Source: Nitrosospira briensis C-128
GTDB taxonomy: Bacteria > Pseudomonadota > Gammaproteobacteria > Burkholderiales > Nitrosomonadaceae
Reading direction: 5' to 3'
Assembly: GCF_000619905.2 (NCBI RefSeq)
Contig: NZ_CP012371.1
Location: 744,001-808,000, forward strand
DNA: 64,000 bases
Numbering within the stretch: the stretch's first letter is position 1; each line of letters begins with the position of its first letter. The position numbers were made by a program, and so were the translations under genes. The notes below the pieces were generated by a model. That model worked only from the letters and a program-made list of their open reading frames with translations. It did no database searches and was not told the origin of the DNA. Positions 8,485 to 57,342 of the stretch are shown here, piece by piece.

Positions 8485-10875
8485 TCAGCATACCCAGTTC
8501 CAGTCGCGGATCTCGGGCATATCCTCACCATACTGCCTGATATACCATTCGTGCTCGATCAACTTATCCCGCATCAATTGCTTGAGATATGCTCCCTTAT
8601 AACCCAGAGCGGGTACGCGGTCCACCACGTCCATTACCAGATGAAAACGGTCCAGGTCATTGAGCACGGTCATGTCAAACGGAGTCGTCGTTGTGCCCTC
8701 CTCCTTGTAACCTCGAACATGCAGATTTTCATGGTTGGTTCGGCGGTACGTCAAGCGGTGAATGAGCCACGGGTAGCCGTGATAAGCAAAAATTATGGGC
8801 TTGCAGGTAGTGAACAGCGTGTCGAAATCGCGGCCGGATAGGCCATGCGGGTGCTCCTCTTTCGGCTGTAGCGTCATCAGGTCCACTACATTTATCACCC
8901 GTATCTTCAGCTCAGGAACGTGATGGCGCAGCAGGTCGACCGCTGCAAGGGTTTCCAGGGTGGGGACATCGCCGGCACAGGCCAGCACCACATCCGGCTC
9001 GCCATCCTGATCGTTGCTTGCCCAGGCCCAGATACCGATGCCGGCGGTACTGTGCGTAATTGCGGCGTCCATATCCAGCCACTGTAGCGCAGGTTGCTTC
9101 CCCGCCACGACAACGTTGATATAATTGCGCGAGCGCAGGCATTTATCGGTTATAACCAGTAGCGTGTTGGCGTCCGGCGGAAGATAGACGCGGATGATAT
9201 CCGCTTTCTTGTTTACCACGTGGTCTATGAACCCGGGGTCCTGATGCGAAAAACCGTTGTGATCCTGGCGCCATACATGCGATGTCAGAAGGTAATTAAG
9301 CGAGGCGATTGGCCTGCGCCAGGGGATTTCCTTGGTAACCTTGAGCCATTTGGCATGTTGATTGAACATGGAATCAATGATGTGAATGAATGCTTCATAG
9401 CATGAAAATAAGCCGTGCCGGCCAGTCAGCAGGTAACCTTCGAGCCAGCCCTGGCATGTATGCTCGGAAAGAATTTCCATCACGCGCCCATCCGGGGAAA
9501 GATGCTCATCCTCCGGCAGGATTTGCGCCACCCAGGTTCTAGCCGTTACCTCAAACAAAGCACCAAGGCGATTTGAACTGGTTTCGTCCGCCCCCATCAC
9601 GCGGAAGTTGCGGCTGTCCAGGTTGAGCTTCATGACATCGCGTAAAAATTTTCCCGTCTCCCGCGTGGCTTCGCCTACTACGGACCCTGGCGTGGGCACA
9701 GCAATGGCGTAATCGCGAAAATCCGGCATTTCCAGGTCTTTCAGTAGTTGGCCGCCGTTGGCATGGGGATTTGCGCCCATTCGCCGCTCGCCCTGCGGCG
9801 CCAGCGCTGCCAACTCCGGTACCAATGTTCCCTTGTCATCGAATAACTCTTCCGGCTTGTAGCTTTTCATCCAGTCTTCGAGCAGCTTCAGATGCCATGG
9901 CTTTGAACCGATCTCCGCAAACGGCACTTGGTGCGAGCGCCAAAAACCCTCGACTTTCTTGCCGTCGACTTCTTCCGGGCCGGTCCACCCCTTGGGGCTG
10001 CGCAAAACAATCATCGGCCAGCGGGCATATGTCGTTACGCCATTGCTACGTGCTTCCTGCTGAATTGCCCTGATCTTGCCGATCACGACATCCAGCGTAA
10101 CCGCCATTGTCTGATGCATGAGTTCGGGGTCGGACCCTTCGACGAAATAGGGCTCATAACCATAGCCCATGAGCAGGCTCTCCAACTCTTCATGGCTGAT
10201 GCGCGCGAGTAGCGTGGGGCCTGCAATTTTATAACCATTAAGGTGCAGGATCGGCAGCACCGCGCCATCATGGGCCGGATTCAGAAATTTGTTGGAATGC
10301 CAAGCGGCGGCAAGCGGTCCGGTTTCAGCTTCGCCATCCCCCACCACGCACGCCACGATCAGATCCGGGCTGTCGAAAGCCGCCCCAAAGGCATGCGACA
10401 GCGAGTAACCCAGTTCACCGCCTTCATTAATCGAGCCCGGCGTTTCCGGCGCCACATGGCTGGGAATGCCGCCGGGAAACGAGAATTGCTTGAATAGTCG
10501 TTGCATGCCTTTAGCATCGCGGGAAATACGGGGATAGAATTCGCTGTAGGTACCTTCGAGCCACGTATTTGCGACCATGGCCGGTCCACCGTGGCCGGGC
10601 CCGGCTATATAGAACATATTCAGGTCATATTTTTTTATGACACGGTTCAGATGTACATAAATAAAATTAAGCCCGGGCGTCGTGCCCCAATGGCCAAGTA
10701 ATCGGGGCTTGATATGCTCAAGCGCGAGCGGCGCCTTGAGTAAAGGGTTGTCCAGCAGATAGATTTGTCCGACGGAGAGATAATTCGCCGCACGCCAATA
10801 TGCGTTCATCTTGCGCAGATCATCTGCTGAGAGCGGCTTATTTTCAGGTGTGCTTATCGACCGGGTTTCGCTCAT
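8485..10875 (-). CDS. xfp: Phosphoketolase
   Basis: Thiamine-diphosphate enzyme splitting xylulose-5-phosphate (and usually fructose-6-phosphate) with phosphate into acetyl phosphate and glyceraldehyde-3-phosphate or erythrose-4-phosphate. At 796 residues it matches the family (~790-800). Visible signatures: an N-terminal [13 protein letters not shown] region (~107-119), a ThDP/Mg motif [20 protein letters not shown] (~178-197), and the C-terminal [21 protein letters not shown] stretch. ATG at 10875 follows acaggagaaaatc, a good ribosome binding site. It lies 18 bases downstream of ackA, so the pair would turn sugar phosphates into acetate plus ATP, a bypass that conserves carbon compared with pyruvate decarboxylation. 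Confidence 0.95.
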
Positions 10876-43269: not shown

Positions 43270-45147
43270 TCAGGTGTTGCCTAGCTGTTGCATGTAAGCT
43301 CGCCAGCCTCCAAACCGGCTGATATCCTCCGCATCTCCCACCGCATATCCCTCACACAGAAAACTCTGCACTGCGTCGCCATTTGCCAGGGTAATGGTAC
43401 CGATGCCCAGAGGCGCAGGAATACCCGCCACAAAACTGCCGAATTCCCGCGTGGGTAATTCCCACACTTCGACTTCGATGGCGCTTCCTTGTTCATTCTT
43501 TTCCACCCGCACCAATCCGGGACGATAGGGCGGCCCGCCCGGTAGCGCGTAAAGTTTATAGTCTGGTGAAGTCGTGGTGCTCAACACCAAGCGTCCGCTG
43601 CGGCTGGTCAGTTGTTCGTTCAACGGGAGACCAAACAGGTGCGCGCCACAAACCGCCACGCGCACGTGACCGGACTGCTGATCGGATTGCGGTGCCTGTG
43701 ATGAACCCGGGATCAAGAGCTGTTCCGGCAAACCCTCTTCTCGCAGGTAAATGCCGGTGGCCCCGAGGGGCAGCGCATAGGCTTGTTGCAGGCGCCCTGC
43801 GAGATGCAGCAGCATCTCATCCTGGTGGGCTGGCGCTGCAAGGGTTATGCCAAACGGTAGCCCATCATCTTGAAAACCAGCGGGCACCGCTACCGCCAAA
43901 TAGTCCAGCAGATTCATGAAGTTGGTGTAGTAACCAAGATTTGCATTGAGGCGCATGGGGTCCTGCTGCATCGCCTGGATCGTATAAATGGTCCCGGCGG
44001 TGGGCGTCAGTAGACAATCTACTTCGGTCCAGGCTCGATCAGTCTGCCGTTTAAGCCCGCGCAAGCGGTATGTCCCATTATAGGCGTCGGCAGCCGAGTA
44101 CCGTTTGGCGCTACCCATTATTTCGCGTACCGGCGCAATGATCTGCTCGCTATGCGAGTCAAAGAATTGCTGAATCGCCGCATAACGCTCGGCCACCCAA
44201 GGGCCCTCATAGAGTAAGCGCGCTGCTTCCAGAAAGGGCGCAAAGTCTATCTCAACAGATTTGCCGCCCAAACCTTGCAGTTTTACGATAGCCTCGCTGA
44301 ACAGCCGTTCGTACTCTTGATTACCGAAGAATTGCAATTGGTCCTTGCGGGGAATACCAAAGCGAAAACCAAGTTCGGAAAAGCGCTGTGTAGCAGAATT
44401 ATGGCCGCGACCTTGTCTCGCTCGCGAATAAATGTCTTCAGCATCGTAGCTGGCGGTGACTTCAAGAACTCGCTCAGCATCGTTTGCGGTAAGGGCAAAG
44501 ATGGAAACACAGTCAAGCGAGCGACAGGCGGGCACCACTCCGCGCGTCGAAAGCCAGCCCCCGGTTGGCTTATACCCGATAAGATTATTGAATGCAGCGG
44601 GCACCCTGCCGGAACCGGCGGTGTCGGTTCCCAGGCTGAAGCATACCCAGCCTTTCGCCACGGCCACCGCCGAGCCGGAGCTCGACCCACCCGAAATATA
44701 ATCGGGATTGAACGCATTGCGGCAAGCCCCGTAAGGAGAGCGAGTACCATTTAACCCGGTTGCAAACTGATCGAGATTGGTTTTGCCGATAGGAATTGCG
44801 CCCGCGTCAATCAATCTCTGCACCACCGTTGCGCTACGCTGCGATGTATAGGCAAAACCCGGGCAAGCCGCCGTGGTCGGTACGCCTGCCAGATCGATGT
44901 TGTCCTTGATGGCAAAAGGGATACCGTAAAGCGGCAGCGCCGCCTTATCCGCGGTCCTCGCCTTGGCCTCCACCGCACTGGCATAGCCTCTCAGTGCCTC
45001 AAGCGGCAGTTTATATATCCATACATGGGCCGTATCGTTCTGGATCAGCGCATGCACCGCTTCCACCATCTGACTGGGTGTGAACTCGCCGCTGGCATAG
45101 CGCTGCAGCATCGAGGGTATGTCGCCCAGAGGCATCAATTCGTTCAA
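43270..45147 (-). CDS. atzF: Allophanate hydrolase
   Basis: Hydrolyses allophanate to two ammonia and two CO2, the last step of this pathway. 625 residues. The amidase-signature half has the Lys of PFAIKDNIDL (~91-100) and the Ser motif ISGGSSSGSAVAVAKG (~170-185), giving the Ser-cisSer-Lys triad. The C-terminal ~150 residues (VRVAVCGAHLFGLPLNEQLT onward) are the small domain found only in allophanate hydrolases. A TTG start at 45147 is supported by the aggagg located in the end of the upstream gene, one base after whose stop this gene starts. Last gene of the riboswitch-controlled operon. Confidence 0.95.
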   Translation of the reverse strand: MNELMPLGDIPSMLQRYASGEFTPSQMVEAVHALIQNDTAHVWIYKLPLEALRGYASAVEAKARTADKAALPLYGIPFAIKDNIDLAGVPTTAACPGFAYTSQRSATVVQRLIDAGAIPIGKTNLDQFATGLNGTRSPYGACRNAFNPDYISGGSSSGSAVAVAKGWVCFSLGTDTAGSGRVPAAFNNLIGYKPTGGWLSTRGVVPACRSLDCVSIFALTANDAERVLEVTASYDAEDIYSRARQGRGHNSATQRFSELGFRFGIPRKDQLQFFGNQEYERLFSEAIVKLQGLGGKSVEIDFAPFLEAARLLYEGPWVAERYAAIQQFFDSHSEQIIAPVREIMGSAKRYSAADAYNGTYRLRGLKRQTDRAWTEVDCLLTPTAGTIYTIQAMQQDPMRLNANLGYYTNFMNLLDYLAVAVPAGFQDDGLPFGITLAAPAHQDEMLLHLAGRLQQAYALPLGATGIYLREEGLPEQLLIPGSSQAPQSDQQSGHVRVAVCGAHLFGLPLNEQLTSRSGRLVLSTTTSPDYKLYALPGGPPYRPGLVRVEKNEQGSAIEVEVWELPTREFGSFVAGIPAPLGIGTITLANGDAVQSFLCEGYAVGDAEDISRFGGWRAYMQQLGNT

Positions 45148-45148
45148 T

Positions 45149-48100
45149 TTAATCCTCCTGAATCACCAGCAGCAACTGGCCGGCGGACACATGTCCGCCT
45201 ACCTTGCAGAAAAGCTGACCAATCGTGCCGCTCACTATCGCTTCCACGGCAAACTCCATTTTCATCGATTCAACGATAAGAACCGGCGTTCCCGCTTCGA
45301 CATGTTGCCTCTCCTCGACGAGCAGTTTCCATACCGTGCCGGTCACATGCGAGCTGATCGCATGCGCCCCATCCGGAAGGTCCAGTTCGCTTTGCGCATC
45401 GGCTTCCTCAAGGGTAATCTCGCTCACATACTCAACCTTGCCCTCGGCATCCCAGCGTTCGCGCTCGGCTTCAAACGCAGCTTGCTGTTTTGCCTTGAAA
45501 GCGCTGATCGACGCCGCATTCTCTTGCAGAAAGGCATTATATTGTTTCAAACTGAACCGGTTTTCTTCCACGCGCAGCTTGAAGTGTCCAGTGATGAAAT
45601 CGCGGCGCAGCTTGAGCAACTCGCTCTCGCTCACTGGATAGAATCTGATCTGATCGAAGAATCGCAGCAGCCAGGGTTTGCCATCCTTGAAATCAGCGGT
45701 CTGACGATAGCGATTCCACATCTGTACGGTGCGCCCAACAAACTGGTAACCGCCAGGACCTTCCATGCCATATATGCATAGATACGCCCCGCCTATGCCT
45801 ACCGCATTTTCAGGTGTCCAGGTACGGGCAGGGTTATACTTCGTAGTGACCAGACGGTGGCGGGGATCGACCGGGGTCGCGACCGGCGCACCCAGGTACA
45901 CGTCGCCCAACCCCATCACCAGGTAGCTCGCCTCGAACAGGATGCGCTGCACTTCCTCGATGCTGTCCAGTCCGTTTATCCGGCGAATGAATTCGATATT
46001 GCTCGGGCACCATGGCGCGTCGCTTCGCACGGATTGCATGTATTTATCGATCGCCAACCGCGTTGCCGCGTCATCCCATGACAACGGCAAATGCACGATA
46101 CGTGTGGGAATCTCCAGGTGTTCGATGTCCGGCAGCTTCTTTTCCGCTGCAATCAAAGAATCCAGCAGCTTATCCCGCGCCAGCAGGCGTGAATCGAAAT
46201 GGATTTGCAAAGTCCGGATGCCGGGCGTCAGATCCAGGATGCCTTTCAGGCTGCCGTTATCGAGGGCAGACTGTACCCACTCCATGAGAGCATGGGCACG
46301 GAAGCGCAGATTGAGATCGAGTTCAGGCGGACCATATTCAACCAGCAGGTTCTTGTCTCCCGCCTGGCGATATACTACCTGTATCTGCTGGGCAGTCTGC
46401 GGGATAGCGTGGAGAATGGGTGTCGTTGTTGTCGCCGCTGCCGTGGCCGGTGTTTTCCGTTCGATTTCCGGCAGAATGGGCTTCGGCACCCGGAGGTTTT
46501 CGATGGTGGTATCCTGCAATTTTTCGAGTGCAAGCGCCTCGTCCATTGAAACCCGGCGGAAACGGACACTATCGCCCGGCTTGAGCTGGCCCATTTTCCA
46601 CAATTCAGCCTGAATTATCGTAACGGGACAGACAAACCCGCCCAGGCTTGGACCATCCGGGCCGAGAATCACGGGCATATCGCCAGTAAAGTCCACCGTG
46701 CCGATAGCATATGCATTGTCATGGATGTTGGACGGATGCAGCCCCGCTTCGCCGCCATCGCTTCGAGCCCATTTTGGTTTGGGACCGATCAGGCGTACGC
46801 CGCTGCGACTTGAATTGTAGTGAACCTCCCAGTCAACAGCGAAGAGTATCCGAATGTCCTCTTCGGTAAAAAAATCCGGCGCTCCGTGCGGGCCATAAAG
46901 CACGTCGATTTCCCATTTATCACTGTAATGAGGAACCAGCTCCTCCGGTAACAGGTTTCCAGCACCGTTCGCACGGGCGCGGGTGTCATCATGGTCTGAA
47001 GTATCACTGGCATCGGCCGCAACGATATGCAGCACATCGCCGGTAAGCAGAGTCCGACCAGCATGGCCGCCAAACTGTCCGAGGGTGAAGGTGGATTTGC
47101 TGCCCAGATAGTCAGGAACCTGGAAACCGCCCTGAACCGCCAGATAGGCGCGGCAGCCATTGCCCACGAGCTTTCCGAATTGTAATATTGCACCCGCCTT
47201 GACTGGATACGATCGCCAAAAGGTCAGCGGCTCGCCATCCAGGCGCACCTCCATCGGTGCGCCGCACACCGCAATCATAGAGTCGCAGTTGAAACGCAGT
47301 GTCGGGCCAGCCAGGGTGATCTCAAGCCCGGCCTTATCTTCGGCGTTTGCAACCAGCCGATTGGCCAAGCGGAAGGCCAACCCATCCATCGGGCCGGATA
47401 GCGGCACGCCGATATTCCAGTAGCCCGTTCGGCCTGGGTAATCCTGCACCGTGGTCTGTACGCCAGGGCTCATCACATCGACGGTATGAGCAGAATAACG
47501 GAAACCATTCAGGAAGCTCGTCGTGTGCTGTCCGCCGTGAAACACCGCGCCGCGCAGGATCTGCTTGAGATAACCCACGTTGGTTTCAATGCCATTCAGC
47601 GCGGTAGCGTCCAATGCGGCCAGGAGTCTGGCGATGGCTTGCTCACGGTCTGCCGCGTGCACGATTATTTTCGCCAGCATCGGGTCATAGAACGGCGAGA
47701 CCTCGACGCCGCGTTCCACCCAGGTTTCAACCCGCGCCACAGACGCGGGCGGGAACTCCGCCGAGGTGAGCGTACCGCAGGATGGCTGAAAATCCTTCGC
47801 GGGGTTCTCGGCGTATACCCGCACTTGGATTGACACGCCCCGTGGTTCGATATGGAACGAATCCAGGGACGGCAACTCTCCGGCAGCCTGCCGAACCATC
47901 CACTCCACCAGGTCGATACCGGTCACCTCCTCTGTCACGCCATGCTCGACCTGCAACCGGGTATTTACCTCAAGGAAATAAAATTCGCTGGTGGAGGCAT
48001 CGAAAATATATTCCACCGTACCCGCCGACTGGTAGTTGACCGTTTTACCCAACCGTACCGCCGCATCCAGTAGCGCCTGGCGTACACGCGAAGGCAAGTG

Positions 48101-48832
48101 GGGTGCGGGCGTTTCTTCGATCACCTTCTGGTTGCGCCGCTGCATGGAACAGTCACGTTCGCCCAGCGCGATGACCCCGCCCTTACCGTCGCCAAAAATC
48201 TGGACTTCGATATGGCGAGCATTCTCCACATATTTTTCCAGGAACAGACCCGCATCCTTGAAATTATTTTGCGCCAGGTATTTCACCGATTCGTAGGCGG
48301 CACTCAACTCTTCCCCGTTCCAGCACAACCGCATGCCGATACCGCCCCCTCCCGCGGTACTTTTCAGCATGACTGGATAACCGATGTGGGCCGCCTGACG
48401 GCGTGCATCTTCCAGGTCTTCCAAAAGACCGGTTCCCGGCAGCAGCGGCACCTGGTTCTGCAAAGCCAGTTCCCGTGCCGTATGTTTCAGCCCGAACGCA
48501 CGCATCTGCTGCGGGGTGGGGCCGATGAAACAAATGCCATGCGCAGCGCATTGCTCGGCAAAGTCCGCCTTTTCACTGAGGAAACCATAGCCAGGATGAA
48601 TAGCCTTGGCGCCCGAGTGTGCGGCAACCTCCAGAATCTTGTCGGCACGCAGATAGCTTTCTGCAGCGACGCCATTACCGATACAGTATGCTTCATCGGC
48701 TTCTATCACATGCTGCGACAGCGCATCGGCATCCGTATAGACCGCCACGCTTTTCACACCGATTCGACGCAGTGTACGGATGATGCGGCAGGCGATGGCG
48801 CCGCGATTAGCTATCAATACCTTCTTAAACAT
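45149..48832 (-). CDS. Biotin-dependent guanidine (urea-type) carboxylase
   Basis: A 1227-residue enzyme of the urea carboxylase family, carrying biotin carboxylase (1-~450, ATP loop [11 protein letters not shown]), carboxyltransferase AHS2/KipA-like (from ~475, [20 protein letters not shown]), AHS1/KipI-like (from ~850) and the biotinyl domain with ESMKME (biotin Lys1191). Enzymes annotated as urea carboxylase but encoded with the two DUF1989 proteins and under ykkC control have been shown to carboxylate guanidine to carboxyguanidine. The context here (guanidine-I riboswitch upstream, both DUF1989 genes) argues for guanidine as the substrate; urea as a poorer substrate remains possible. Good ribosome binding site (caggaaatagacc). 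Confidence 0.93.
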
Positions 48833-48969
48833 GGTCTATTTCCTGTTTAGTCCTGCTCGATTGCCGCATGATGCGCGCGAACCTCTGCTGCAGCATCGCC
48901 CTCGTAATTCGAAGGAATCACAATGGCGATCCGCAAGACCCCCGCAATCCACTCGCAACCCGGGAATGA

Positions 48970-49653
48970 TTAATCAAACGACATGTCTTCGGGATCGTCC
49001 CAGATCAGGAGACGGATCGGTGTAGGGTTGTAGGCGTTGCACGGATTGTTCAGTTGCGGACAATTCGAAATCAGCACGATCACATCCATTTCAGCTCTCA
49101 TTTCCACATATTTGAATGGGGCGGACATGCCATCTGCAAACTCCAGGCCGCCGGCCTCCGACACGGGTACGTTCATGAAGAAATTGATGTTGCTGGGCAG
49201 GTCGCGCTTGCTCATGTCGAGATGCTCACAGACCGGTTCATGGGCCAGCGCATGCAGAAAGTTGTCGCGGCAACTGTGCATTGGAAATTTTTCCAGCCCA
49301 TACCGAACCGTATTGCTCTCCGCGGCGCAGGCCCCGCCTATGGTGTCATGCCGTCCGCATGTGTCTGCCACGATGCTGAGCATGACATTGCCGAAGTTGG
49401 AATACAGCTTGCTGCCGGTGGTCAGATAGAGCTGCTTCTGGCGGCGGATGGTATCGGTTGCGCTGTATCGCTCAAAGGCGTGGGATGCGTTGTAGAACAA
49501 TGTGTCGACCGCCTGGTTACCCCCCAGATCGACAATGCGAAATACCTGTTTCTCCGTCAGCAGTCTGACCCAGGGCTCACCCGCCGGGCAGACTTCGTCC
49601 ACCGTTGCCGTTTCGGGATCAAGCCTGCTTTCCACAAATTGCTTCTTGCTCAT
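48970..49653 (-). CDS. cgdB: Carboxyguanidine deiminase subunit (DUF1989, UAAP2)
   Basis: Long annotated as 'urea amidolyase associated protein 2'. 227 residues from the ATG at 49653, which overlaps the stop of the previous gene (ATGA) and follows tggaggtgcggc. DUF1989 motifs: FRIVDLGGNQAVDTLFYNA (~38-56), AFERYSATDTIRRQ, CGRHDTIGGACAAESNTVRY and SNINFFMNVPV. CgdA and CgdB together hydrolyse carboxyguanidine to allophanate and ammonia; assignment of A versus B is by gene order. After the TAA, the same frame stays open for about 40 codons of protein-like sequence (48846-48969), suggesting a former C-terminal extension or a small ORF. Next gene starts 137 bases on. Confidence 0.9.
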   Translation of the reverse strand: MSKKQFVESRLDPETATVDEVCPAGEPWVRLLTEKQVFRIVDLGGNQAVDTLFYNASHAFERYSATDTIRRQKQLYLTTGSKLYSNFGNVMLSIVADTCGRHDTIGGACAAESNTVRYGLEKFPMHSCRDNFLHALAHEPVCEHLDMSKRDLPSNINFFMNVPVSEAGGLEFADGMSAPFKYVEMRAEMDVIVLISNCPQLNNPCNAYNPTPIRLLIWDDPEDMSFD

Positions 49654-50381
49654 GCCGCACCTCCATGACAAGCGTATAAATTCCGGGTATTCAGCAGTGC
49701 GCGCGCGTTCTCGGCAATGCGAGTGCAGACCGCTATTACCGACGGCGGTGTCACAAATGCTGCCAGATCGACCGCTCCGGGCTGATAGGTTTTTGACGAA
49801 TCAAGCGGGTGTGGCGCAGTGGATAACACCATCAGCGTATCCATTTCGAAACTCAGATCCACATGATCTCCCGCCTTGCTGCTGCCGGGATGGAACGCCA
49901 GCTCACCGGATGAATTGGCGGTTACCTTACTGAAGAAATTGATATTGGATACGACATCACGTATGCCCAGCCCCCATTTTCCCAATTCGATCAGCATGCC
50001 ATCCAGCCCGTTGCGAAACATCTCGTTACGGCGCTCTTCGAACCGCGCCGTACCATATTTCTGGCGTATCGATTCGGCATCGCTCATGCCGCACACAGTG
50101 TCGTGCCACCCGGCGGTATCTTCGGTAATGCAGCAGAAAATACGGCCCATATCTGAATGGCACGCATGTCCCTTGGTCAAACGGAACGTATGTTGGGTTT
50201 TGAGTGTATCGGCCATGTTGTAACGTTCCAGTTTTTCCTCCTGATTAAAAAATAGTACGGCGGCATTGGCTCGTCCTATCACATCCACCAGGCGTAGTGT
50301 CGTACCCCGACGCACAATGCCAGACCAGTGGCACCCGCCGGGGATGTGCTGTTCCCAAATCAATGCATCCGATTGGTTCAT
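49650..50381 (-). CDS. cgdA: Carboxyguanidine deiminase subunit (DUF1989, UAAP1)
   Basis: Partner of the following gene, 243 residues, DUF1989 family ('urea amidolyase associated protein 1'). Conserved stretches: PGGCHWSGIVRRGTTLRLVD (~14-33), LFFNQEEKLERYNMADTLKT (~43-62), DTAGWHDTVCGMSDAESIRQ (~89-108) and RDVVSNINFFSKVTANSSGE (~140-159). Cys and His residues in these blocks are candidates for a metal site. It follows the permease gene by 63 bases and overlaps the next gene by four bases, so the two subunits are translationally coupled, as expected for a heteromeric enzyme. Confidence 0.9.
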   Translation of the reverse strand: MNQSDALIWEQHIPGGCHWSGIVRRGTTLRLVDVIGRANAAVLFFNQEEKLERYNMADTLKTQHTFRLTKGHACHSDMGRIFCCITEDTAGWHDTVCGMSDAESIRQKYGTARFEERRNEMFRNGLDGMLIELGKWGLGIRDVVSNINFFSKVTANSSGELAFHPGSSKAGDHVDLSFEMDTLMVLSTAPHPLDSSKTYQPGAVDLAAFVTPPSVIAVCTRIAENARALLNTRNLYACHGGAA

Positions 50382-50444
50382 GTTTTTCTCCTCATCGTAA
50401 TAAATTTTCGGTTGAATGAATTTCGAGAAGGCTGATATCGCGCT

Positions 50445-51914
50445 TCATTTGGATAACATCTTTTTTTCAAAGCCTTTTTGCTGCGTTCGGGACATCAGGA
50501 TATGAAGAGTCGTTATCCCCAGGATAACGCTCAACACCAGAGGCACCGCCCAGAGCTGCCACCAGGGTGCATTCGGAGCAACTGCGTAGGCACGCGGCCA
50601 GGCAATGTTGACGAATTCAAATACCGACCAGGCAAAGGCTACCGAGTTGATCAGCAAGCCCCAGATGCCAAGCTTGAGCTCACCGAGAGCCGGGTTCCAG
50701 CGGCCGGAGAGCCGGGCGTACAACCCAACCCCGGTGGTCATGGAAAACATGGCGTAGAGTCCCCCCGTACCGAACGCAATCACCGTAGCCACGGCGCCAT
50801 CATTCAACCCGAACAGCAACCCAAGCGCAGACATCGATACCGTGCATATCACCGCATTGCGCGGCGTCTTGTCGGGCGCCAACCGGCTTAACACGGCGGG
50901 CATATTGCCTTCGCGGGCCATCGAATAAATGATGCGCGACGTGTACTTCACCACAGATGCCCCGCAGGCCAGAAAGGCGATCATGACAATACCCAGGAAC
51001 GGCTTTGCCGCCCATGCGCCGAAGCTGGCGATGATCACGGGCGTGATCGGGTCGGACGTCGCGCTGGCAATGAGCGTATCGCGATCGAAAGCCAGCGTCA
51101 GCGCCGCGGAATTGAACAGCACGACTGACCCCACCATACATAGCGAAAAGAAGACCGCGCGCGGCACCATGCGCTTGGGATCATGCGTTTCTTCGGCGAT
51201 AGTGGAACAGGCATCAAAACCGATAAACGCCCAGCCCGCGATGGCAAGTGCCGCCAGAAAGGCGCTGATCTCATCGGGCGCAGTGCCCGTGCCCAAATGC
51301 TGAAACAACTCCGAAAATGAATGCTGCCGAAAAAAGAGAAATAGCAGCAGAGCGACACCCACGGACCCGATCATCTCCGCATAAACGCCCAGTGAAATGA
51401 TCAGCTTGAAAATATTGATGTGCGCCAAGTTGATCAGCGTGCAGAGCAATAGAAATACTGCGCCCCACACCACCAGCCCAAGCCCTGTTTCACTCTCTGA
51501 TCCGACGAAGAGGGAAAGCCAGACTCCCCCGGTATAGGCGGTTGTGGTCAGCATCGCAACCGTGGAGCTGACGTATATCACGCCAGCATATTTACCGGTG
51601 ATGACACCACCGAGCTGATGCGCCCATTTGTAAGCGCCACCGGCGATTGGAAACTGCGAGGAAAGCTCTGCGTAGACGGTGGCTACAAGCAATTGCATCA
51701 CGAGGCAGAGTATCAGTGCGCCAAACCAGCCACCGCCTGTCACGACGGTCTGTACACCAATGATGGCATACAGGCCCACTACCGGCGAAACAACGGCGAA
51801 GCCGAGGATGAGGCTACTCCAGACACTCATGCTACGGTGGAGTTTATCGTCGATGACGGGCGCCGCTGCAGCAACGGTAGCAGCAGGGGGAGGCGTATAC
51901 CGGTTCCCCCTCAT
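50445..51914 (-). CDS. APC-family permease, probable guanidine importer
   Basis: Amino acid/polyamine/cation (APC) transporter. I start it at ATG 51914 (489 residues) because homology begins just after it (LHRSMSVWSSLILGFAVVSP) and because this ATG overlaps the stop of an upstream mini-ORF; the frame itself is open to 52040. Twelve helices are visible. The FIGFDACSTIAEETHDPKRM loop (~233-252) is typical of the family. As the first full gene after the guanidine-I riboswitch it most likely brings guanidine (guanidinium) into the cell for the enzymes encoded downstream. Substrate is inferred from context only. Confidence 0.87.
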   Translation of the reverse strand: MRGNRYTPPPAATVAAAAPVIDDKLHRSMSVWSSLILGFAVVSPVVGLYAIIGVQTVVTGGGWFGALILCLVMQLLVATVYAELSSQFPIAGGAYKWAHQLGGVITGKYAGVIYVSSTVAMLTTTAYTGGVWLSLFVGSESETGLGLVVWGAVFLLLCTLINLAHINIFKLIISLGVYAEMIGSVGVALLLFLFFRQHSFSELFQHLGTGTAPDEISAFLAALAIAGWAFIGFDACSTIAEETHDPKRMVPRAVFFSLCMVGSVVLFNSAALTLAFDRDTLIASATSDPITPVIIASFGAWAAKPFLGIVMIAFLACGASVVKYTSRIIYSMAREGNMPAVLSRLAPDKTPRNAVICTVSMSALGLLFGLNDGAVATVIAFGTGGLYAMFSMTTGVGLYARLSGRWNPALGELKLGIWGLLINSVAFAWSVFEFVNIAWPRAYAVAPNAPWWQLWAVPLVLSVILGITTLHILMSRTQQKGFEKKMLSK

Positions 51915-51982
51915 TGACATGATACCCATCCCGAGAGAAGCGGAACAACCATGCCTGGCCGATGATTCACGCGCCAACTCAT
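51911..51982 (-). CDS. Upstream mini-ORF 2 (23 aa)
   Basis: ATG at 51982 overlaps the TGA of mini-ORF 1, and its own TGA overlaps the permease ATG at 51914 (ATGA both times). Encodes MSWRVNHRPGMVVPLLSGWV then SCQ. It could pass ribosomes to the permease start by coupling. Coding role of the peptide itself is doubtful. Confidence 0.25.
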   Translation of the reverse strand: MSWRVNHRPGMVVPLLSGWVSCQ

Positions 51983-52071
51983 GCTGGAGAAGCGCCGTTC
52001 GAGAAGCCCAAGCAGGCCCCGACGCTATCAATTGCTGCAAAAAGAGGAAAAAAAATCGAAGAGAAGTGCAT
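51979..52071 (-). CDS. Upstream mini-ORF 1 (leader, 30 aa)
   Basis: ATG at 52071 has the best ribosome binding site of the whole leader (aaaggagaccggtc), about 54 bases after the riboswitch. It encodes MHFSSIFFPLFAAIDSVGAC then LGFSNGASPA and ends in an ATGA overlap with mini-ORF 2. It may be the site where the riboswitch controls translation. Confidence 0.35.
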   Translation of the reverse strand: MHFSSIFFPLFAAIDSVGACLGFSNGASPA

Positions 52072-52124
52072 GACCGGTCTCCTTTATCAGCGGATCAAAT
52101 TCCAAGAGTTAATGTATTACTTAC

Positions 52125-52226
52125 ATTATCTCCCGGGCTTTTATCCCTCCGTGGAGCCTCGTCACGACGAAGCCGGAAACTCTCGGACCAGACACTTTCA
52201 GCAGAAAGCCGGAACCCTAGTTTCGC
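52125..52226 (-). ncRNA. Guanidine-I (ykkC-yxkD) riboswitch
   Basis: Read on the minus strand the leader contains the hallmark blocks in order and at normal spacing: ctagggttccg (near 52222), ctggtccgagag (near 52191), then cacggagggataaaagcccg plus ggaga at the 3' end (52128-52153). These are the most conserved nucleotides of the ykkC class that binds guanidinium. It lies 54 bases before the first start codon of the operon leader, on the same strand as permease, cgdA, cgdB, carboxylase and atzF. A guanidine-bound form would switch these genes on. I see no clear intrinsic terminator, so control could be at translation. Confidence 0.95.
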
Positions 52227-57250: not shown

Positions 57251-57342
57251 GGAGAGATGGCCGAGTGGTTTAAGGTACACGCCTGGAAAGCGTGCGTACG
57301 GCTCAAACCGTACCGAGGGTTCGAATCCCTCTCTCTCCGCCA
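57251..57342 (+). tRNA. tRNA-Ser(GGA)
   Basis: A complete class II tRNA. The acceptor stem ggagaga pairs with tctctcc (57332-57338), followed by discriminator g and encoded CCA. The anticodon stem-loop is cacgc ctggaaa gcgtg with anticodon GGA at 57285-57287 (reads UCC/UCU). A long variable arm (gtacggctcaaaccgtac) and a T loop ggttcgaatcc are present. Its 3' end serves as the attachment site of the island that follows. Confidence 0.98.
57329..57342 (+). repeat. Attachment site attL in tRNA-Ser 3' end
   Basis: The last 14 bases of the tRNA gene, ctctctctccgcca, recur exactly at 63680-63693. tRNA 3' ends are classical targets of tyrosine recombinases; the intact copy is kept in the tRNA. Confidence 0.7.

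Follow-up and report, generated by a model that had tools for sequence, protein, structure and literature searches.

A guanidine-I riboswitch, its predicted guanidine operon and overlapping leader ORFs in Nitrosospira briensis C-128

Introduction

The guanidine switch and the operon that follows it are already known from ammonia oxidisers of this kind and have been described for close relatives. According to the available part of the main source (Nature 2024, PMC11410670), a guanidine-carboxylase operon is reported for Nitrosospira multiformis, and guanidine-degradation genes occur in 135 of 145 genomes of betaproteobacterial ammonia-oxidising bacteria (AOB). The locus analysed here lies within 64,000 nucleotides of N. 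briensis C-128 DNA (contig NZ_CP012371.1; hereafter the window). It comes from a different species and shares with N. multiformis, as far as the accessible text describes the latter, the genus, a class I guanidine riboswitch, the guanidine carboxylase pathway and a urease encoded elsewhere in the genome (PMC11410670).

A carboxylase, a carboxyguanidine deiminase and an allophanate hydrolase are likewise placed under a guanidine riboswitch in Raoultella, Klebsiella, Pseudomonas syringae and Vreelandella, in the available portions of three papers (PMC12186494, PMC12508155, PMC11410670). By the same accounts these bacteria import via ABC transporters, whereas the window has an APC permease, and the operons of Raoultella, Klebsiella and Vreelandella possess an extra guanidine-II switch, unlike the single guanidine-I element of the window. 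Nitrospira inopinata, also an ammonia oxidiser, resembles the window in having a guanidine-I switch directly 5' of an APC permease, but the accessible text attributes to it a Ni-dependent guanidinase without ATP cost and growth on guanidine (PMC11410670); in the genome of N. briensis no arginase-family (guanidinase-type) gene was found.

Results and Discussion

The preliminary description of the window had recognised ykkC blocks on the minus strand at 52125-52226 and proposed a guanidine-I search against Rfam. Carried out with cmscan, this search returned the same element as a match to RF00442 from 52231 to 52128 (minus strand), which scores 93.7 bits (E 1.1e-15) against a gathering cut-off of 63 and spans the full model, 1-107. 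It is the single copy in the genome (3.21 Mb), and RF00442 was found in 101 of the 125 Nitrosomonadaceae genomes surveyed. By its family the aptamer is predicted to bind guanidine and would respond to it. The minus-strand scan gave no promoter-like site in the stretch that separates the aptamer from the upstream gene.

The genes that had been read behind the switch were all recovered by profile search on the same strand, in the order APC permease, two DUF1989 genes, TIGR02712 carboxylase and allophanate hydrolase. The APC-family permease (50445..51920; PF13520, 8.8e-32) is a probable guanidine importer; it falls outside the model of the urea carboxylase system permease, TIGR03428 (149 bits, cut-off 740), and is the only product of the operon whose family does not pass a curated cut-off. 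The DUF1989 genes, UAAP1 (49650..50381; TIGR03425, 326.5 bits, cut-off 206) and UAAP2 (48970..49653; TIGR03424, 327.7 bits, cut-off 284.7), are adjacent, each above its cut-off, and probably encode the two subunits of a carboxyguanidine deiminase; the start of UAAP2 was set at ATG 49653 from its start context and overlaps UAAP1 in an ATGA. What had been called a biotin carboxylase is indeed a carboxylase (45149..48832; TIGR02712, model name urea carboxylase, 1940.7 bits, cut-off 1303.9), and in fact a complete 1227-aa enzyme of BC-CT-BCCP architecture, with its Pfam domains in this order and the biotin site MKM. The allophanate hydrolase (43270..45147; TIGR02713, 813.3 bits, cut-off 511) combines PF01425 (Amidase) and PF21986 (AH_C), in agreement with AtzF, and its nearest solved structure is 4gyr. 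Locus L159 (genome G096), which we take to be N. multiformis, has the gene order of the window and a carboxylase 82% identical.

An alternative (OFF) hairpin, terminator-like with a weak U-run (4 T in 10 nt), is predicted at 52092..52147 of the minus strand by the MFE fold, in which GGGAUAAAAGCCCGGGAG, the 3' strand of the aptamer, is base-paired to CUCUUGGAAUUUGAUCC; the list of the terminator scan does not contain it. Computation shows that the alternative pairing is conserved across leaders. A full 7-bp partner of the CCGGGAG arm is present in 64 of 90 distinct leaders and absent from 26, with 6.3 expected from shuffles, although relatedness of the genomes makes this shuffle test, and the one on uORF stops below, overstate independence. 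In an alignment of 59 of 89 leaders, with outside lineages and second switches omitted and some ends adjusted by hand, pairs 1-5 of the hairpin are kept in 58-59 leaders and pair 6 in 52. Base changes in these pairs are one-sided only, and RNAalifold found no both-sided covariation in the 59 aligned leaders, because the aptamer strand of the hairpin is invariant. The T8 run near 52050 was also considered as a terminator, and no terminator-like site is listed there by the minus-strand scan; as a sign of a frameshift or pseudogene it was ruled out, since the permease start is placed further downstream.

This start is probably ATG 51920 and not the TTG 52040 of the open reading frame; ATG 51929 and ATG 51914 are likewise in frame with the permease. 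Two short ORFs precede it on the minus strand, namely uORF1 (51979..52071, 30 aa), behind a strong Shine-Dalgarno sequence AAAGGAG, and uORF2 (51911..51982, 23 aa). The start of uORF2 overlaps the stop of uORF1 (ATGA), and its own stop codon shares bases with the start proposed for the permease (ATGTCAATGA). G096 differs in having one uORF of 65 codons, with the stop 11 nt before the permease ATG.

In Nitrosospira generally, the Shine-Dalgarno sequence 3' of the switch serves a short upstream ORF and not the permease. A stop in the +1 frame ends at +10 of the permease gene in 20 of 23 genus leaders and at +4 in two, G112 having neither. In 14 of 22 leaders the stop of the first uORF falls somewhere from -2 to +14 relative to the permease start, where 2000 shuffles give 3.9 (maximum 9); G094 and G106 have their first uORF in a different frame, and in three leaders it ends 11 nt early. 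More than one in-frame permease ATG occurs in 8 of the 23 leaders, the window among them, and the overlap itself partly guided which start was chosen in G094, G113 and the window. The encoded peptides are loosely constrained, with dN/dS of 0.43-1.34 in ten pairs as compared to 0.04-0.10 for the permease (the alignment was built at the protein level, so that whole-codon gaps carry no weight), and these values do not support a leader peptide conserved as a peptide. While the uORF arrangement is a plain computational observation, which we consider a new detail (a search that reached little subscription literature yielded no publication that we recognised on leader uORFs), its function can be approached through the mechanism that we propose.

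Guanidine binding would retain the aptamer 3' strand (GGGAUAAA..CCCGGGAG), which could then form no hairpin with CUCUUGG..UUUGAUCC, the form expected to stop expression, likely by transcription termination. The strong Shine-Dalgarno sequence of the mRNA would next start the short leader ORF, and ribosomes would be passed from uORF1 to uORF2 and on to the permease at the overlapping stop and start codons. In Nitrosospira, according to this suggestion, the switch acts on the permease indirectly, opening a ribosome relay via a leader ORF (two overlapping ones in the window); termination-reinitiation coupling would keep the stop codon of this leader within the permease start, even as the peptide drifts. 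We give the relay even chances; against it counts that a GGAG of its own stands ahead of the permease ATG in 9 of the 23 leaders, so that direct initiation is possible. If the relay is true, the leader would link production of the permease to translation across the switch region, and perhaps also protect the RNA from Rho. A parallel is offered by the metA SAM-II riboswitch of Sinorhizobium meliloti, where, by the available text of PMC9373788, a switch-side Shine-Dalgarno sequence likewise governs a more distant start codon; ligand and class are different there, and AUG2 is in frame, in contrast to the out-of-frame uORFs that overlap the permease start in the window.

Downstream of these events guanidine would be imported by the permease, carboxylated by the biotin-dependent enzyme to carboxyguanidine at a cost of 1 ATP, deaminated to allophanate by the UAAP1/UAAP2 pair, and allophanate would be split by its hydrolase into 2 NH3 and CO2. 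The total of three NH3 per guanidine may serve assimilation and be a supplementary substrate of ammonia oxidation. We infer on good grounds that the organism takes up guanidine and converts it to ammonia and CO2, and we hold it very probable that the guanidine-I riboswitch switches on this five-gene import and breakdown operon, the OFF hairpin, the uORF handover and the three NH3 taken together.

What the pathway is for can be read in two ways. It is an open bet, in our view, whether the same chemistry performs detoxification or gives a minor nitrogen supplement, with no growth or energy from guanidine alone. In the accessible part of PMC11410670, two weeks with guanidine as sole substrate brought no use of it by any of the five AOB strains tested, all of which have the pathway genes and two of which are N. 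multiformis, and three of the five turned a fraction of it into nitrite, only with ammonium present; ATP-dependent carboxylation perhaps requires cells pre-energised by ammonium. In the same direction points the family survey, where allophanate hydrolase is above cut-off in 51 of 125 genomes and the riboswitch present in 101, so that for many operons the known route cannot lead to three NH3. The SMR-type gene of the host genome is split over two frames, and guanidine export may therefore be unavailable. Against this reading speak the allophanate hydrolase in the operon of the window and the dedicated importer, which points to use of external guanidine.

The initial suggestion, in which guanidine would fully supply this species with energy and nitrogen, appears unlikely. 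The complete gene set is accompanied in the host genome by three AMO-family genes (PF02461) and RuBisCO, and the stoichiometry of three NH3 per one ATP is favourable, but the sole-substrate tests cited above (PMC11410670, as partially available) were negative; they weaken the energy-source part of the initial interpretation and leave its guanidine carboxylase and carboxyguanidine deiminase standing. PF02461 replaced as AMO marker the archaeal AmoA model PF12942, which represents a wrong family (weak in 7 of 125 genomes, none over cut-off). The question is narrowed in this way to AOB that have a complete guanidine-sensing pathway and do not live on guanidine, while comammox N. inopinata does, and both the leader uORFs and the hydrolase-less family members provide concrete, testable leads on it.

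The substrate signature of the carboxylase was read by eye from a phmmer alignment to 5i8i, in which Asp714 faces Asn1330 of KlUC. Asp at K. lactis position 1330 distinguishes guanidine carboxylases by the available text of PMC11410670, and the enzyme carries this residue and not the Asn of urea carboxylases; Asp977, in GLGDV, would correspond to the Asp expected at K. lactis 1584. The Asp/Asp pair is found in 104 of 106 distinct carboxylase sequences of the compared loci, and Asn/Asp in two from Salinisphaera. Together with the riboswitch and the complete gene set including allophanate hydrolase, Asp714 upholds the initial assignment of guanidine carboxylase and carboxyguanidine deiminase rather than urea amidolyase, and the enzyme would then prefer guanidine to urea. 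That the carboxylase works on urea with the DUF1989 proteins as accessories, as the NCBIfam names (urea carboxylase, UAAP1/2) and the nearest solved structure, K. lactis urea amidolyase, would have it, is highly improbable given a urease already encoded in the genome and a review which, in its accessible part, finds that enzymes of such type prefer guanidine (PMC12186494), and we reject a urea amidolyase identity on account of Asp in place of Asn at 714 and of the guanidine-I riboswitch upstream. The locus confirms that 'urea amidolyase' annotations in ammonia oxidisers denote guanidine genes.

As a separate observation, on which no publication was recognised in a search covering little subscription literature, a carboxylase paralogue without the biotin-carboxylase domain, absent from the genome of the window, is present in at least 13 related species, with N. 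eutropha and Nitrosospira NpAV as carriers, all of them with no allophanate hydrolase over cut-off.

The riboswitch and its gene set

The preliminary description placed a guanidine-I riboswitch on the minus strand with a set of five genes behind it, and our analysis finds both. The Rfam search (cmscan, Rfam 15, gathering thresholds) gave two matches in the window: RF00442 at 52231-52128 on the minus strand, covering the whole model with 93.7 bits against a cut-off of 63 (E 1.1e-15), and an 89-base tRNA gene whose variable arm is long (57251-57339, RF00005). A family search of the whole genome found RF00442 in a single copy. Four of the five downstream genes lie over curated NCBIfam cut-offs; the exception is the permease, an APC permease by PF13520, which reaches 149 bits versus the 740 needed for the 'urea carboxylase system permease' model. 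With this score and all five genes present, the riboswitch and operon are real, correctly recognised and not due to chance.

The main claim, a guanidine riboswitch with degradation genes in ammonia-oxidising bacteria (AOB), is essentially published already: PMC11410670 describes a type I guanidine riboswitch as controlling the guanidine genes of N. multiformis and predicts an APC permease as the importer. Of the 145 genomes of betaproteobacterial AOB considered there, 135 have genes for guanidine degradation, exclusively of the carboxylase pathway. For bacteria of other kinds, PMC12186494 and PMC12508155 deal with the same enzymes, and according to PMC12625717 floodplain nitrifier MAGs lack the guanidine genes. 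As to the earlier suggestion that guanidine is used here and may even serve as an energy source, gene set and switch make the first part a well-supported prediction; the energetic extension is weakened because, in PMC11410670, none of five AOB tested used guanidine alone, and three converted part of it when given ammonium.

Carboxylase signature and host genome

Guanidine carboxylases are called by Asp at positions 1330 and 1584, according to PMC11410670. In an alignment read by eye, Asp714 of the window enzyme, which is 94-95% identical to its Nitrosospira sp. Nsp11 counterpart, stands opposite Asn1330 of K. lactis urea amidolyase (5i8i). The Asp/Asp pair occurs in 104 of the 106 distinct carboxylase sequences spanning both sites in the loci of the comparison set (90 full and 14 short, one of the latter, L101, a mere contig fragment). 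The remaining two, both from Salinisphaera (loci L091 and L108), have Asn/Asp and, given this Asn, look like true urea carboxylases.

The host genome, one contig of 3,210,113 bases belonging to Nitrosospira or a very close neighbour, contains three AMO matches (PF02461), one RuBisCO large-chain match, and urease alpha; it has no match to the PF00491 arginase family and thus no recognisable guanidinase. Its single SMR-type gene (G000:C1:1107665-1107941) has its halves in different frames, and this exporter gene is possibly broken.

Patchy allophanate hydrolase and a short carboxylase

Across the 125 Nitrosomonadaceae genomes, RF00442 was found in 101 (91 of the 99 good ones), whereas allophanate hydrolase (TIGR02713) is over cut-off in 51, the window's included, and appears as contig pieces below cut-off in two more (G012, G123). 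This patchy presence is one of two points of remaining interest. G015 and G016, two genomes of N. eutropha type, have no urease match in addition to lacking allophanate hydrolase over cut-off.

In at least 13 of the 125 genomes there is a further carboxylase homologue, roughly 770-810 aa long (L139:6837-9158, L140:11964-14246, L145:4329-6716 and ten further loci), for which we recognised no published account in a literature search. All 13 listed paralogues retain both signature Asp residues and group in a single clade (support 1.0) that has both Nitrosospira and Nitrosomonas members (FastTree, 103 sequences), and in 11 of the 13 loci, those with all genes on the same stretch, the paralogue directly follows the permease and both DUF1989 genes. 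A Pfam scan of two examples found the carboxyltransferase-type and biotin carrier domains and no biotin-carboxylase domain; such a protein would depend on biotin carboxylase supplied in trans. None of the 13 paralogue genomes, some of them drafts, has allophanate hydrolase over cut-off, and many paralogue-free genomes likewise lack it. In Nitrosospira sp. NpAV (L139:1841-16350), bioA, bioB and bioC are interleaved with the guanidine cluster, which also holds a BiuH-like isochorismatase hydrolase (272 bits, below the 370 cut-off).

In the N. eutropha Nm24 locus a pair of neighbouring guanidine-I riboswitches points in opposite directions (L145:9942-10043, minus; 10341-10444, plus), one facing the permease, the DUF1989 genes and the short carboxylase, the other a full-length carboxylase. 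Two loci on contigs labelled Nitrospira, L038 and L039:1372-7941, carry guanidine genes 81-88% DNA-identical to those of a small-genome Nitrosomonadaceae group; none of eight loci compared with L039 matched it outside this interval, no riboswitch was found, and either transfer or misbinning may account for these features.

The leader and its short frames

In the ligand-free minimum-energy fold the 5' part of the aptamer is kept, and its 3' strand pairs with CUCUUGG..UUUGAUCC in an extended hairpin. A motif search of the comparison loci gave 90 distinct leaders; in 64 of them the CCGGGAG arm can form all seven pairs (shuffles average 6.3), and in 26 it cannot. Aligning 59 leaders shows five of the hairpin's pairs in 58-59 of them and a sixth in 52; all changes are one-sided. 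The U-run that follows this conserved pairing is weak in the window, at 4 of 10 (up to 7 in some relatives), and a terminator scan did not list the hairpin among its sites. Analogy with the known riboswitch class thus makes termination in the OFF state likely, though not certain.

The other point of remaining interest is a possible leader relay. A Shine-Dalgarno sequence 60-70 nt behind the aptamer opens directly into the permease in 31 of 82 leaders, each of them Nitrosomonas-type; in Nitrosospira it starts a separate short frame (uORF). We compared 23 leaders from 22 genomes. The set holds 23 members of the genus, among them the window's genome; G108 gave no switch match, and G103 contributes two, each at the end of a contig. 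ATG or GTG follows the Shine-Dalgarno in 22; the leader of G095 has ATA there, its frame open for 65 codons. Relative to the permease ATG, which is ambiguous in 8 of 23 leaders (more than one in-frame ATG) and in the window (51920), G094 and G113 was picked among three partly by uORF overlap, the first uORF stops at +10 in 12 of 22 leaders, +4 in two, -4 in one, -11 in three (G096-G098), -58 in the window and G113, and, in another frame, +20 and +26 in one each. The window and G113 have a second uORF, whose start lies within the first one's stop codon as ATGA and whose own stop is at +10. Stops within -2 to +14 number 14 of 22, versus a mean of 3.9 and a maximum of 9 in 2000 shuffles, in genomes that are related to one another. 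The first stop in the permease's +1 frame ends 10 bases past the A of the ATG in 20 of 23 leaders and 4 bases in two, spelled ATAA, ATAG, ATGA, GTAG or GTGA; G112 has none within four codons of the permease start.

GGAG precedes the permease ATG in 9 of 23 leaders, where translation might therefore start directly. Across ten pairs of close relatives the uORF has a dN/dS of 0.43-1.34 and codons 1-200 of the permease 0.04-0.10, a contrast that fits selection on the uORF being translated and not on the peptide it encodes. The six leaders of the small-genome sister group (g4) have uORFs that are 14-21 codons long and stop 11 nt (two leaders) or 27 nt (four) before the permease ATG.
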